Made by a program: the position numbers and the translations under genes
Shown: positions 61,693-64,000 of the stretch, one piece after another
Numbering within the stretch: position 1 is the stretch's first letter
How the letters are laid out: each line of letters opens with the position of its first letter
The notes under the pieces: generated by a model
Database searches by the model: none
What the model was told of the DNA's origin: nothing
The model's input: the letters and a program-made list of their open reading frames with translations, nothing else
NCBI RefSeq assembly: GCF_018130825.1
Contig: NZ_JAFCJS010000002.1
Coordinates: 372,001 to 436,000, forward strand
From: Bradyrhizobium liaoningense
GTDB lineage: Bacteria; Pseudomonadota; Alphaproteobacteria; Rhizobiales; Xanthobacteraceae
Reading direction: 5' to 3'
DNA length: 64,000 nucleotides

Positions 61693-61766
61693 TGGGGAAT
61701 GGTGTAACGGTAGCACAACAGACTCTGACTCTGTTTGTCTTGGTTCGAATCCAGGTTCCCCAGCCA
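61693..61766 (+). tRNA. tRNA-Gln (anticodon CTG)
   Basis: The sequence folds as a cloverleaf: acceptor TGGGGAA/TTCCCCA, D-arm GTGT-AACGGTAG-CAC, anticodon stem ACAGA/TCTGT with loop CTCTGAC (anticodon CTG), T-arm CTTGG-TTCGAAT-CCAGG. Discriminator G and encoded CCA follow. Its 3' end faces the lower-GC, unfamiliar region, so it may be an integration site. Confidence 0.95.
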
Positions 61767-61967
61767 TCTCCACGGGCGTCCGCTAACTGGCTGTAATTGC
61801 TGCATTCTAGGTGACTGGGTAGCCGGTGTACCCTAACGGCGCCCCCAACGCATGCCCCCAACGCGTAAATCGGCCCACGTTCGCCCCTTCTGGGTGAGCA
61901 ACTAATCGGCGAATCGGTACATTCTCTCACCCTTGCGTCGTACGGAGCTTGGACCGCTGGGGGATGA
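61767..61967. other. tRNA 3'-flank with CCCCCAACGC repeat, no gene
   Basis: The flank has GCCCCCAACGC followed after two bases by a second GCCCCCAACGC, at about 61841-61864. No integrase is recognisable. This could be a degraded end of an integrated element. Confidence 0.4.
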
Positions 61968-62888
61968 ATGACGTTGCTGATCGAGTTTAGTAGCCACTTC
62001 TTTCCGGCCGCATATGCACTTCCCTCTGGCACGCTCTCCACAACATGGGATGAATTGCTTTGGGCTGCGGTTACGATTGGCCGACCAAGTACGTACCATG
62101 TGTTCCGGCATGGAGAGGCCTCGTTTCACGAAGCGATCTTTCGGTTGGCATTGATCCGAATGGCGGTCGAGCAGGACCCGGGCGGATATCTTCGACGCAC
62201 AGATGCCTTTGCCGCCCTCGATCCCACTGAAAAGGGGATGGTGAGCTATTTTCTCGGCATGACAGTTTGTAAGCTTTTTGCGTCCCGCCTTCTCACGGCG
62301 CCTTGGCTGCTTCACTTAGACGTATTCCGCAATGCATTGGGAGCAACGGTTCTTGGGCGATCGCGGCCTGATCTAGTCGGAGAGGACCTGAATGGCCAGT
62401 GGCACGCTTTTGAAAGCAAGGGACGGTCATCAGTCCCTTCAGCAGCTGATCGAGCGAAGGCTAAACTTCAGGCTCAAAGGCTTGTTTCGGTAAATGGGCA
62501 AGGTTGCTCTTTGCATATTGGTTCGTTCGCTTTCTTTCGTTCGGACGTTCTTGAATTCTATTGGCGAGACCCAGAACCTGACGATGTGGAAGCCATTAGG
62601 GTGCCGAGCCCGGATGAAGAATGGCGCTACTATTACGAACCAGCACTGAGTTTAGCGTTGGACGCTGCTGCGTTGGCAAAATCTCCTGATCGAGAGCTAG
62701 CTGACGTCCAGGTGATCATCCATCCCGAAATTCAGCATCTGCTTGTTGCGGGTCGGTGGTTGAGTGCGAAAGAGCTGGCTACGAAGCAACGTGCGGCGCT
62801 CGTCGCTGAGGGTTACCAGCCGGACGGCATCTGGCTAAGCGCCGGCCAGAGCTGGCGGTCGAGATACAGACCAAGGGAACGCAGTTAG
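61968..62888 (+). CDS. PD-(D/E)XK nuclease-like hypothetical protein
   Basis: The 306-residue protein contains RSRPDLVGEDLNGQWHAFES followed by KGRS (residues 131-154): RPD, then about thirteen residues and E-x-K, the layout of a PD-(D/E)XK active site (D135, E149, K151). An upstream Glu (FHEAIFR) may be the helix Glu. The N-terminus (HFFPAAYALP) and C-terminal WRYYYEPALSLALDAA are not assigned. GGGGA lies 3-7 bases before the ATG. Codons are more AT-rich than in the neighbouring operons, which suggests horizontal acquisition next to the tRNA. The role is unknown; a defence or mobile-element function is inferred. Confidence 0.62.
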   Translation: MTLLIEFSSHFFPAAYALPSGTLSTTWDELLWAAVTIGRPSTYHVFRHGEASFHEAIFRLALIRMAVEQDPGGYLRRTDAFAALDPTEKGMVSYFLGMTVCKLFASRLLTAPWLLHLDVFRNALGATVLGRSRPDLVGEDLNGQWHAFESKGRSSVPSAADRAKAKLQAQRLVSVNGQGCSLHIGSFAFFRSDVLEFYWRDPEPDDVEAIRVPSPDEEWRYYYEPALSLALDAAALAKSPDRELADVQVIIHPEIQHLLVAGRWLSAKELATKQRAALVAEGYQPDGIWLSAGQSWRSRYRPRERS

Positions 62889-63183
62889 TGCTTTCTTCTC
62901 GCTTAGACGGGTTGCTTTTCGGCTCAGAATTCCAATAGATTCATGTTCGAGCGATACGCGTCGCTCCGGGGCGTGGAAACCTCGTGCTAGCGGTCGGTGC
63001 CCGCCGGAATGGGTACGGTCTCCTTGACCATTATGGTCGGGGAGCCTGCGACGTATGTCCAGGTTCTCCCGAACTAAAGGTCGTAGGGCCGTCTAGCACG
63101 GTTTCCAACTCCCCGATCACCAGGGCTCAAGAGGCAATTGCTTACGGGGGCGCACCGTGGGCCAGCCTCCGGAGGTTGGAGCG

Positions 63184-63546
63184 ATGGACGCAACGGCGAC
63201 TGCACTCACGGAGAGCAAGAAGAAGGAGGCTGCCGGACGTACCGCCTCGCTGCTCTGGATCGCGACGGGCATCTACTATTTCGCGAGCACCGAAGCTGCG
63301 GCCTTCCTGTCTTGGCAAGCGGCACTGTTCTTCATCGGCGGCATGTTTGGTGCTGCGCTCGTATTCGGAGCCGCAAGTCACTATCTCTTCGCTGCGCACC
63401 AAGACTTCTATCTCAATCGTGCACGCGGCAAGCCCCTGCTGGAGGTTCTTACGGGTCTCGCGAGCCTGTTGGTCAACCTCTTCGAGATAGGGGCACCGAT
63501 AGTGGCCGCGAGGTGGGCCTTCCTGAGCCTCTATGGTTTGACCTGA
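63184..63546 (+). CDS. Small multi-spanning membrane protein (120 aa)
   Basis: GGAGG lies 8 bases upstream of the ATG at 63184. The 120-residue protein has an N-terminal polar segment (MDATATALTESKKKEAAGR), then hydrophobic stretches at about 20-55 (TASLLWIATGIYYFASTEAAAFLSWQAALFFIGGMF, two helices), about 57-72 and about 85-115 (LLEVLTGLASLLVNLFEIGAPIVAARWAFLSL). No family is recognised. It lies 295 bases after the nuclease-like gene; whether they work together is not shown. Confidence 0.6.
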   Translation: MDATATALTESKKKEAAGRTASLLWIATGIYYFASTEAAAFLSWQAALFFIGGMFGAALVFGAASHYLFAAHQDFYLNRARGKPLLEVLTGLASLLVNLFEIGAPIVAARWAFLSLYGLT

Positions 63547-63852
63547 GGCTTGGCTTCGTGAAGGCCTTTGTGGGGGGATAACTCAATCTCGTCCGGTGTC
63601 TGGTCGGTCAATTTGAGCACGGACCTCGAAGTGTCGTCGACATATCCCCTTGGGGGCGGAGACTCGGCGACTGCTGTGCTCGGCAGAGCCATAAAGGAGA
63701 GCCTCTAGGAAGGGGTGGTGATCACTCACCCTCGCTTGAAGGCAACCCACAGAGGAGAGCCAAAAGGTTACGGCTCCAAGCTCTAATCACTCTAAGCTGC
63801 CCCCCCCTATGTTGCTCCTCCATTAGCGGAGGTGTAAGAATTATGTCATTCT
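63547..63852. other. Intergenic region, low coding signal
   Basis: No supported reading frame is seen. It has CCTCC-ATTAGC-GGAGG (63817-63832), a weak hairpin, and an AT-rich end near 63840-63870. The hairpin may terminate transcription of the minus-strand gene that ends at 63853. Confidence 0.4.
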
Positions 63853-64000
63853 AATTATTGATGAAATTTTACTGAGACAATCGCGCACGGCGAGCGGCTC
63901 CAGCGTCGAAAAACGGCCCCCATGGTTTCCTGCGCCACACCCGCGTTGGATTTCGCAACGAGCACCGCATCGTGGAGAGGCAGGGCGGTGACTCCAGCGG
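63853..64000 (-). CDS. C-terminal fragment of an edge gene, weakly family A DNA polymerase-like (partial)
   Basis: The minus strand reads AGVTALPLHDAVLVAKSNAG, then an A-x(4)-M-x(3)-F segment and SVKFHQ, stopping at TAA (63853). The LHDAVLV text followed by a helix and a final V-x-V-x-F resembles the C-terminal HDE-type motif of family A polymerases of phages or plasmids. Only 49 codons are visible and the start is off the right edge, so the identity is tentative. Confidence 0.35.

Follow-up and report, generated by a model that had tools for sequence, protein, structure and literature searches.

TraM and QseM act as brakes on transfer, in rhizobial and agrobacterial plasmids as well as in a symbiosis island, and the control of the level of these two proteins is only partly understood. 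The traJ-II and radC motifs are linked to conjugation or mobile genes. For a further RNA relevant here, sRNA-Xcc1, the part of its description cited here (PMC2996969) reports a transcript of 88 nt, whose ends were mapped and which gave one band on a Northern blot. Integration at a tRNA-Gln gene was reported for a symbiosis ICE of approximately 0.68 Mb, carrying symbiosis genes and, from the cited part of the source, apparently belonging to the genus of the present DNA (PMC9174649).

The stretch of DNA analyzed here (the window) comprises 64,000 nucleotides of Bradyrhizobium liaoningense (contig NZ_JAFCJS010000002.1, positions 372,001 to 436,000). Its right end was read as part of a split island of approximately 14.7 kb at a tRNA-Gln gene, with exchangeable cargo and a putative switch-type leader RNA before a small membrane protein gene; this joint reading, drawn from sequence comparison, is considered moderately probable. 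The preliminary description had seen only a long weakly coding gap before the membrane gene. Instead, this region (62940-63190) was conserved in other genomes, folded better than 200/200 shuffles (z -4.93) and contained a structured RNA whose 3' end coincides with the membrane gene start. The features concerned are the following:

62948-63183, plus strand: structured leader RNA of approximately 235 nt, model core at 62968-63122
62974-62990, plus strand: 5' strands of helices PL (62974-62981) and PM (62984-62990)
63020-63029, plus strand: 5' strand of hairpin H1, CUCCUUGACC
63035-63044, plus strand: shared strand, GGUCGGGGAG
63093-63107, plus strand: 3' strands of helices PM (63093-63099) and PL (63100-63107)
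63109-63118, plus strand: switch strand, CUCCCCGAUC
63184-63546, plus strand: small membrane protein of 120 aa that follows the leader; both relatives found are broken

Two-sided changes were observed at 30 of the 53 pairs of the model, as compared to 16.0 in shuffles, none of which reached this value (0/500). Helix PM retained at least six Watson-Crick pairs in 45/57 loci, with 41 different strands, against a mean of 2.7 and a maximum of 9 in 5000 permutations; this mark was missing in the other 12, including L038 and L039, whose RNAs are the closest to that of the window. This stricter test replaced an initial one with loose windows, which was weak (at least seven pairs in 41% of cross pairs and in 41/51 own pairs). 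In these alignments the partial locus L065 was left out of A2, L090, with a foreign 5' half, was left out of A3, and hits shorter than 90 nt were not aligned. Four weak matches in antisense orientation (E 0.0005-0.005) also came out of the model search and were not counted as members.

The shared strand can pair either with the upstream strand, forming hairpin H1, or with the switch strand, forming H2. Two-sided change was found at 1/10 pairs of H1, not above shuffles (467/500), while its cell count exceeded 500/500 shuffles; in H2, 94.5% of the cells were paired, with two-sided change at only 1/10 pairs. The four strands changed jointly in three loci (L153, L155 and L156). Since one strand has alternative possible partners and four strands change together in these loci, the element is likely to be a switch-like leader RNA. 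Furthermore, in many relatives the switch strand was complementary to the Shine-Dalgarno sequence (GGGGAG), and in some it could form a hairpin with a U-rich run behind it. Neither Shine-Dalgarno pairing nor a terminator-like hairpin was found in the window's own fold, and neither was universal among the members.

The leader was detected by blastn in 29/198 genomes of the family, its own genome included, and by a covariance model in 40/297 genomes of the order. Among plasmids, a TraM-type query returned 354 records, 259 of them typed as conjugative, and a DUF2285-type query returned an overlapping set of 218. The genes that follow the related RNAs were small and mutually unrelated, prominent among them conjugation antiactivators (TraM and QseM-like DUF2285 proteins); the Pfam families detected downstream were Prok-TraM (E 7.2e-30), RovC_DNA-bd (E 1.1e-7) and HTH_3 (E 1.7e-10), and a SymE-like ORF followed the leader of locus L174. 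A conserved, covarying structure thus lies 5' of a coding region, as is looked for in a riboswitch. In the open-access literature on the traM and fseA/qseM leaders and on sRNA-Xcc1, a limited search confined to main texts, no description of the leader RNA was found.

The published view of sRNA-Xcc1 would make the RNA a trans-acting small RNA gene that lies upstream of coding regions by chance. The Rfam entry of sRNA-Xcc1, which appears to be a remote relative of the leader, as an sRNA and its discrete 88-nt transcript (PMC2996969, cited part) agree with this possibility. Nevertheless, the distance to the start codon was nearly constant, with 54-70 nt in 15/17, 10/10 and 6/8 members when the three largest clusters of downstream genes were compared; from the core it was 61 nt in the window and in pAt12D1 and pAtK84b (traM) and 64 nt in pYP1 (before the DUF2285 gene). 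As many members also carry the strand complementary to the Shine-Dalgarno sequence, the trans-acting reading is considered unlikely.

Less probable still is that the conserved stretch is active at the DNA level, with inverted repeats serving, for instance, in recombination, in replication or in the binding of a regulator. That it is carried by mobile elements, and in pYP1 and an S. meliloti plasmid lies close to genes for replication or transfer, would suit such a role, but the complementarity of PM is maintained with 41 different strands and the loops recur in P4b, where we take them to be GNRA- or UUCG-like. The orientation to the next gene was also the same at the loci examined, a weak argument since the design of the ORF search imposed it.

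Under the preferred reading, a switch-like leader, the RNA between the nuclease and membrane genes would belong to a large family whose conserved core senses a signal, both the ligand and the direction of the switch being guesses. Formation of H2 would leave the ribosome-binding site open; formation of H1 would free the switch strand, which would then occlude this site or, among some relatives, fold into a hairpin with a U-rich run after it. The same leader would have been placed before many mobile-element genes, above all conjugation antiactivators such as TraM and QseM-like proteins, and here before a small membrane protein. The step from switch to membrane gene is the least certain, because the window shows no evident Shine-Dalgarno pairing.

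A broader proposal is put forward tentatively, as possible but short of probable: that a new and widespread class of signal-sensing leaders governs mobile-element genes across Alphaproteobacteria, sRNA-Xcc1 being a stable piece of such a leader. This class would precede non-homologous antiactivators (TraM, QseM-like), further regulators, small membrane proteins and a SymE-like gene. That two antiactivators without homology have a structured leader in common points to a shared input at the RNA level and, if the proposal is true, one cellular signal would determine the transfer state across many plasmids and islands that are unrelated to one another.

The DNA that carries this leader in the window begins at the tRNA-Gln gene, where the preliminary description had placed a possible element edge. 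The remaining features of this region are:

61693-61766, plus strand: tRNA-Gln (CTG) with encoded CCA, the integration target, where synteny with relatives stops
61750-61766, plus strand: attL core of 17 bp; its second copy, at attR, lies on the minus strand of contig C1 (L117:14055-14071)
61831-61863, plus strand: three arm-type repeats, (C)CCC(T/C)AACG, with further copies at attR and in related islands (L038, L039 and L041)
61968-62888, plus strand: PD-(D/E)XK-like protein of 306 aa, of a type I restriction-associated family by motif, model and operon context
63855-64000, minus strand: C-terminal end of a backbone protein of the island (424 aa, phrog_4756), whose ORF extends past the window

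The synteny of congeners ran up to the 3' end of the tRNA and differed beyond it. Among the matches listed, those crossing the tRNA stopped at its 3' end or at most about 15 nt away, with the exception of G453 and G529, both of which carry related islands. The tRNA of three relatives (G441, G458 and G407) was followed directly by sequence that, compared by eye, resembled that beyond attR, as expected for an empty site. The lower GC that had been judged by eye was also borne out, with 0.552 and 0.588 in the final two kilobases and 0.615-0.689 in the remaining 62 kb. A search to the right for a direct repeat and an integrase had been proposed. No copy of the tRNA 3' end besides the tRNA itself was found in 80 kb of the same contig (C12:432000-511999), but both features were present on another contig, where attR was first detected through a match of approximately 34 bp. 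Adjoining it, inside the element, was an integrase gene (L117:14150-15565; Phage_integrase PF00589, E 2.2e-11, with DUF6538). A single stray 12-mer in C12:432000-511999 corresponded to flank sequence only. Taken together, these comparisons indicate that the mobile island edge at the tRNA-Gln is real.

The location of attR on a different contig is attributed to an inversion. Two identical IS66 copies of 2514 bp were found in inverted orientation with their 8-bp flanks exchanged (CCGGCGAG and CGATATGA), and because these target duplications are swapped, recombination between the copies appears to have split the island. The right end of the window would thus lie inside the left part of an integrative island of approximately 14.7 kb (plus the 2.5-kb IS66), the halves of which a later inversion placed on separate contigs. 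A complete sister island of 21.7 kb was found in G453, which matched the integrase gene and the 4.8 kb past attR at 89-93%; the leader RNA was absent from it. The related islands of G529 and G397 contained the leader RNA and a broken membrane gene, other DNA replacing the nuclease gene. The cargo on the attL side is the PD-(D/E)XK-like protein, whose family mostly forms the last gene of type I restriction operons; that on the attR side is a NADAR / HAD-like / PRTase-CE / CARF gene set. The island illustrates the exchange of cargo and backbone at one tRNA-Gln site.

A single island of approximately 1 Mb, extending across both contigs and holding attL and attR, is permitted by the contig ends and would recall the size of the published tRNA-Gln symbiosis ICEs (PMC9174649, cited part). 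This reading was set aside because the IS66 flanks turned out to be exchanged; since the sister island in G453 is also compact and no NodC over the cut-off was detected in the genome, we consider it very improbable. NodC was the one nodulation gene sought in considering a symbiosis ICE.

The compact island carries a nuclease candidate. The residues D135, E149 and K151, singled out in the preliminary description, were invariant in 7/7 aligned sequences of the 306-aa family, the signature D..(D/E)xK was found, and the predicted model reached a pTM of 0.84. Motif and model thus agreed with a PD-(D/E)XK-like nuclease, although the fold matches were weak: Foldseek returned nothing at E <= 0.001, and the best VIA Z was 4.2, in rows that we take to be mostly nucleases of this fold. 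At 4/6 other loci the homologue closed a type I restriction operon, and in four loci its gene and the end of hsdS overlapped by 4 nt; Zorya genes adjoined a fifth. We infer that the 306-aa protein is a nuclease acting in restriction; the window copy, an orphan without a restriction operon, may be a relic. The suggested defence role was supported only by context for the nuclease, and not for its pairing with the membrane protein. Relatives on plasmids were remote (26-36% identity, 5 records), and one of them shared a 16.5-kb stretch with a type I R subunit; none were found in viral contigs.

As had been noted, neither window protein matched a named family in Pfam, PADLOC, NCBIfam or PHROGs; the thresholds for the 306-aa family were E <= 10 and, for PHROGs, E <= 1, and among the anti-phage systems catalogued in PADLOC 2023 no family matched either protein at E <= 10. 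Matches of single members among the seven nuclease sequences to KRAB (E 0.003) and DUF1688 (E 0.11), and of the nuclease profile to receptor chains in a PDB sequence search (E 0.11 and worse), were taken as chance. The nuclease would thus be a companion, not yet catalogued, of type I restriction operons.

The membrane ORF was listed at 63157-63546, and the good ribosome-binding site before the ATG at 63184 confirmed the strong site described earlier. Elsewhere, only two matches to this gene were detected in 195 congeners, both partial and broken. A two-gene defence system made up of the nuclease and the membrane protein is highly improbable: the genes are neighbors on the same strand with 295 nt between them and the nuclease family is defence-linked, but the membrane gene was absent from all of the six other nuclease loci searched (0/6), its two broken relatives lack an adjoining nuclease, replaced in G529 and G397, and the leader RNA intervenes. 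The minus-strand fragment at the edge of the window, described as polymerase-like, was not confirmed as such: its only PHROG match was phrog_4756, a family without assigned function, its AlphaFold model was unusable (mean pLDDT 41.6), and no PDB relative was found, the one match having E 0.16.

Compared with known systems, the nuclease is tied to type I restriction-modification operons by the 4-nt overlap of its homologues with hsdS at four loci, and differs in that the window copy stands alone. The island shares integration at tRNA-Gln with the symbiosis ICE, presumably of Bradyrhizobium, and differs in size, approximately 14.7 kb against 0.68 Mb, and in having no NodC above the cut-off (PMC9174649, cited part). 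The traJ-II and radC motifs are likewise structured RNAs, listed for Proteobacteria in the cited part of PMC2864571, but neither matched the leader at E <= 1 or, in one scan, E <= 0.5. With the riboswitches and attenuators that hide a Shine-Dalgarno sequence, the leader shares a conserved core, putative alternative helices and, in many members, an anti-Shine-Dalgarno strand; it differs in being one RNA family, without known ligand, before many unrelated mobile-element genes, and none of the Rfam 15 riboswitches matched in the scans run. Relative to sRNA-Xcc1 (RF02221), the leader is longer (approximately 235 nt), has 5' strands absent from the Rfam model and precedes different genes. Only L174 reached the gathering score of 53 bits; the window scored 27.5 bits, the highest-scoring alphaproteobacterial member 38.6 bits, and the window locus (L046) fell short of E <= 1 among the 18 loci compared. 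Nevertheless, the 87-position Rfam model aligned over its full length with the core in 9/18 loci, at positions that correspond (best E 0.0028), and L174 matched both model R1 (E 1.5e-4) and the Rfam model above its gathering score (61.6 bits). The leader would thus give a cis-acting reading of sRNA-Xcc1, hitherto treated as trans-acting.

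The tRNA-Gln, the 306-aa open reading frame (ORF), the membrane ORF and the drop in GC were all found as the preliminary description had them, and the element edge that it suspected at the tRNA-Gln proved to be real, with att borders and an integrase present in the genome (8.08 Mb, 27 contigs, the window being C12:372001-436000). A 3,401-base query across the tRNA matched 146/146 genomes of the genus sample, own genome included, many through the tRNA itself only. Among the matches listed, those of the relatives' left flanks through the tRNA ended at its 3' end or at most about 15 nt past it, the exceptions being the relatives G453 and G529. 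About 100 nt more beyond the tRNA are common to the window, G453, G529 and a third relative, G397, and contain three direct repeats (C)CCC(T/C)AACG. These occur again on contig C1, where the other border (attR) lies, close to a second copy (17 bp) of the 3' end of the tRNA; the sequence past this copy resembles, by eye, that directly 3' of the tRNA in the relatives G441, G458 and G407. A tyrosine integrase (PF00589, E 2.2e-11; DUF6538) adjoins attR. The match to G453 was 93% for 4.8 kb beyond attR and 89% for the integrase gene, and both borders of the G453 island were found on a single contig, 21.7 kb apart. As a finding, the island edge is sound but ordinary. Additionally, G397 carries a full tRNA-Gln (L121:13331) and, about 10 kb away, a duplicate of the tRNA's 3' end (L039:3673), with different sequence after each; tandem islands are possible there.

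The island part on C12 leads into an IS66-type element. A 2,514-bp stretch there has an exact counterpart (100% identity), in inverted orientation, on C1, 8.7 kb from attR. On the assumption that the terminal inverted repeat, which lies one base in from the limit of the identical stretch, marks the end of the element, CCGGCGAG is found both to the left of the C12 copy and on the attR side of the C1 copy, and CGATATGA at the two remaining flanks. Since IS66 elements duplicate 8 bp of their target and the flanks match crosswise, the duplications look exchanged, the pattern that would be expected after recombination between two IS66 copies. Undisturbed, the island would measure, from the coordinates, 5,985 + 8,687 bp, about 14.7 kb, plus the IS.

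Three products of the island, namely a 424-aa protein (phrog_4756, no assigned function), that of a 257-aa ORF and a serine recombinase of 255 aa, are shared with the G397 island at 70-79% identity and, in more remote versions (25-39% identity), with that of G529. The 424-aa protein is 86-89% identical in G453, where the ORF list has similar neighbours, and was matched in 14 of 100 relatives. The backbone ORFs of 424, 257 and 185 aa kept in related islands (L003:3856-6527) had no Pfam match. The cargo differs between related islands. In the own island, the putative nuclease lies at the tRNA-Gln border (attL), and the attR side encodes NADAR, HAD-like, PRTase-CE and CARF proteins, a set reminiscent of conflict or defence systems; G453 carries a DNA methyltransferase, an uncharacterised 603-aa protein and a protein with two GHKL-type ATPase domains. 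The two sets are located as follows:

L117:15750-19452 and L118:1317-2582, NADAR/HAD-like/PRTase-CE/CARF gene set adjoining attR on C1
L122:9706-15327, cargo of the complete sister island of G453 (21.7 kb)

A pattern search of 84,980 species, each represented by a single genome, which reaches close relatives only, gave six relatives of the 306-aa protein (49-65% identical), and among 397 genomes of the order it was found in the own genome alone. The residues D135, E149 and K151 are invariant in 7/7 sequences. The predicted structure (pLDDT 78.5, pTM 0.84) had no Foldseek match at E <= 0.001; its structural matches were weak (BsaXI, Z 4.2; HamA of Hachiman, 3.8; also Hjc, Exo5 and EcoRV), and most of the proteins matched are nucleases with a PD-(D/E)XK fold. 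At the loci L007, L008, L009 and L012, the nuclease gene overlaps by 4 nt the end of an ORF in the hsdS position, behind hsdM; two of these loci, L007 and L009, also showed hsdR. Profiles were applied to R and M of both L007 and L009 and to S of L009, the operon assignment of L008 and L012 being by sequence likeness of the ORF starts. A T5orf172 protein (GIY-YIG type) and an Mrr protein follow the homologue in L009; in L010, it lies about 0.8 kb from ZorA1B1C1, and in L011 no defence neighbour was recognised by inspection of the ORFs alone. We infer that the 306-aa protein is an accessory nuclease of type I restriction; the protein is uncatalogued, though its kind is known. In a Beijerinckiaceae MAG (L012:9992-13450), a gene that encodes a large serine recombinase and overlaps a tRNA-Gln(CTG) comes after the homologue and the type I restriction genes: another recombinase at the same tRNA type as in the window.

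Among the finds in the window, the leader RNA deserves most attention. The gap earlier called weakly coding holds instead this structured RNA, behind which the membrane ORF starts. Positions 62940-63190 fold at -127.2 kcal/mol, versus a mean of -100.9 in 200 shuffles, and blastn with a 239-nt query found the RNA in 29/198 genomes of the family, own included. The structure (53 pairs) was defined on 32 aligned sequences, derived from them and then tested: 87.9% of cells pair, versus at most 47.1% when slid, and two-sided changes occur at 30 of the 53 pairs versus 16.0 (sd 2.1) in shuffles that ignore the relatedness of the sequences (0/500 reach that value). Helix PM, misaligned by MAFFT, gave the strongest single result: at least six contiguous Watson-Crick pairs were present in 45 of 57 loci, with 41 different 5' strands, versus a mean of 2.7 loci and a maximum of 9 in 5,000 reassignments of the 3' strands. 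The two loci whose RNA is closest to that of the window lack this mark.

The covariance model R1 (154 positions, 33 pairs) matched 40/297 genomes of the order, in 28/122 genera and with at most seven copies per genome, and 25/398 genomes of a phylum sample overlapping the former, six of them outside the class. On plasmids, a query with the TraM-type leader gave 354 records (259 typed conjugative) and one with the DUF2285-type leader 218 (176 conjugative), sets that overlap in part and come from unevenly sampled sequenced plasmids. An exact 16-mer occurs in 32 viral-contig stretches, and in 16 of these the RNA itself was matched at E <= 1e-4 (17 matches). The RNA was absent at the six nuclease loci (17-21 kb stretches) and from the G453 island. 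Weaker matches (E 2e-5 to 2e-7) in another alphaproteobacterial family (L166, L167, L170, L173) lie upstream of ORFs resembling ECF sigma factors, and remote members lie near a Type II hammerhead ribozyme (L175:2894-2958) and a C4 antisense RNA (L176:2062-2131).

In pAt12D1 and pAtK84b, traM starts 61 nt past the core end, the same distance as the membrane gene in the window, and in pYP1 a DUF2285 gene starts at 64 nt. The leader is directly upstream of traM in an S. meliloti plasmid, a helix-turn-helix (HTH) regulator comes next after it in an R. etli plasmid, and the next annotated gene of pOC167 (gene table incomplete) is about 440 nt away. In 76/78 loci, the start of an ORF of 45 aa or more follows the core at a distance of 25-125 nt; the ORFs were picked automatically in this wide interval, and some frames are surely wrong. 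Single-linkage clustering gave 17 TraM-like, 10 DUF2285-like and 8 HTH proteins, then clusters of 4, 3, 3, 3, 3, 2 and 2, and 21 singletons; starts 54-70 nt after the core were found in 15/17, 10/10 and 6/8 of the three largest. The Pfam names, each from one scanned cluster member, were Prok-TraM (E 7.2e-30), RovC_DNA-bd (DUF2285; E 1.1e-7) and HTH_3 (E 1.7e-10); of the ten proteins scanned, six matched no Pfam family, and one more had a match that stayed below the cut-off. Since L079, a member of one half of the 17-protein cluster, had no Pfam family, the TraM likeness of that half comes through phmmer linkage only. Published work presents TraM as a TraR antiactivator (PMC6341043) and QseM as a lone-DUF2285 antiactivator of FseA (PMC10359603); the short DUF2285 proteins behind the leader may act like QseM.

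In the proposed switch, the shared strand GGUCGGGGAG can pair in two ways: with an upstream strand, as helix H1, or with the switch strand CUCCCCGAUC, as helix H2. When the downstream regions of 32 loci were folded, the switch strand, whole or in part, paired with a Shine-Dalgarno-like GGGGAG, GGGGUG or GGGAG before the ORF in a group including L142, L145, L146, L148, L153 and L155-L159, enclosing a stable hairpin, after which, in several cases, U-rich sequence comes; the other loci did not show this pairing. By eye, L153, L155 and L156 combine a shared strand GGGGUG, a switch strand CACCCC and a Shine-Dalgarno GGGGUG with a matching A in the H1 strand. In the window, both helices fit fully by eye, and no pairing was seen between the switch strand and the ribosome-binding site, which lies beyond a 3' hairpin. 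Since H1 and H2 vary little by pair statistics (one pair with two-sided change in each), the switch is plausible, not proven.

The Rfam model of sRNA-Xcc1 matched the core in 9/18 loci (best E 0.0028), none of which reached the gathering score. The window's locus, like eight others, gave no match there; a smaller search scored it at 27.5 bits (E 0.15). A second set, also of 18 loci, includes L174, which exceeded the gathering score (61.6 bits) at R1's own site, five loci that matched under it and twelve that did not match. The ORF behind L174 resembles SymE. An island with a putative nuclease and a switch-like leader RNA is the best overall explanation, held with moderate confidence, slightly reduced by the missing PM mark in the two nearest RNA relatives and by the lack of an sRNA-Xcc1 match at the own locus in the larger search. 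Two reports place sRNA-Xcc1 upstream of symE in integron cassettes (PMC12444791) and describe seven homologues in Xylella, five of them clustered in a genomic island (PMC12189769). As the link between the models runs both ways, the leader RNA and sRNA-Xcc1 likely form one superfamily.
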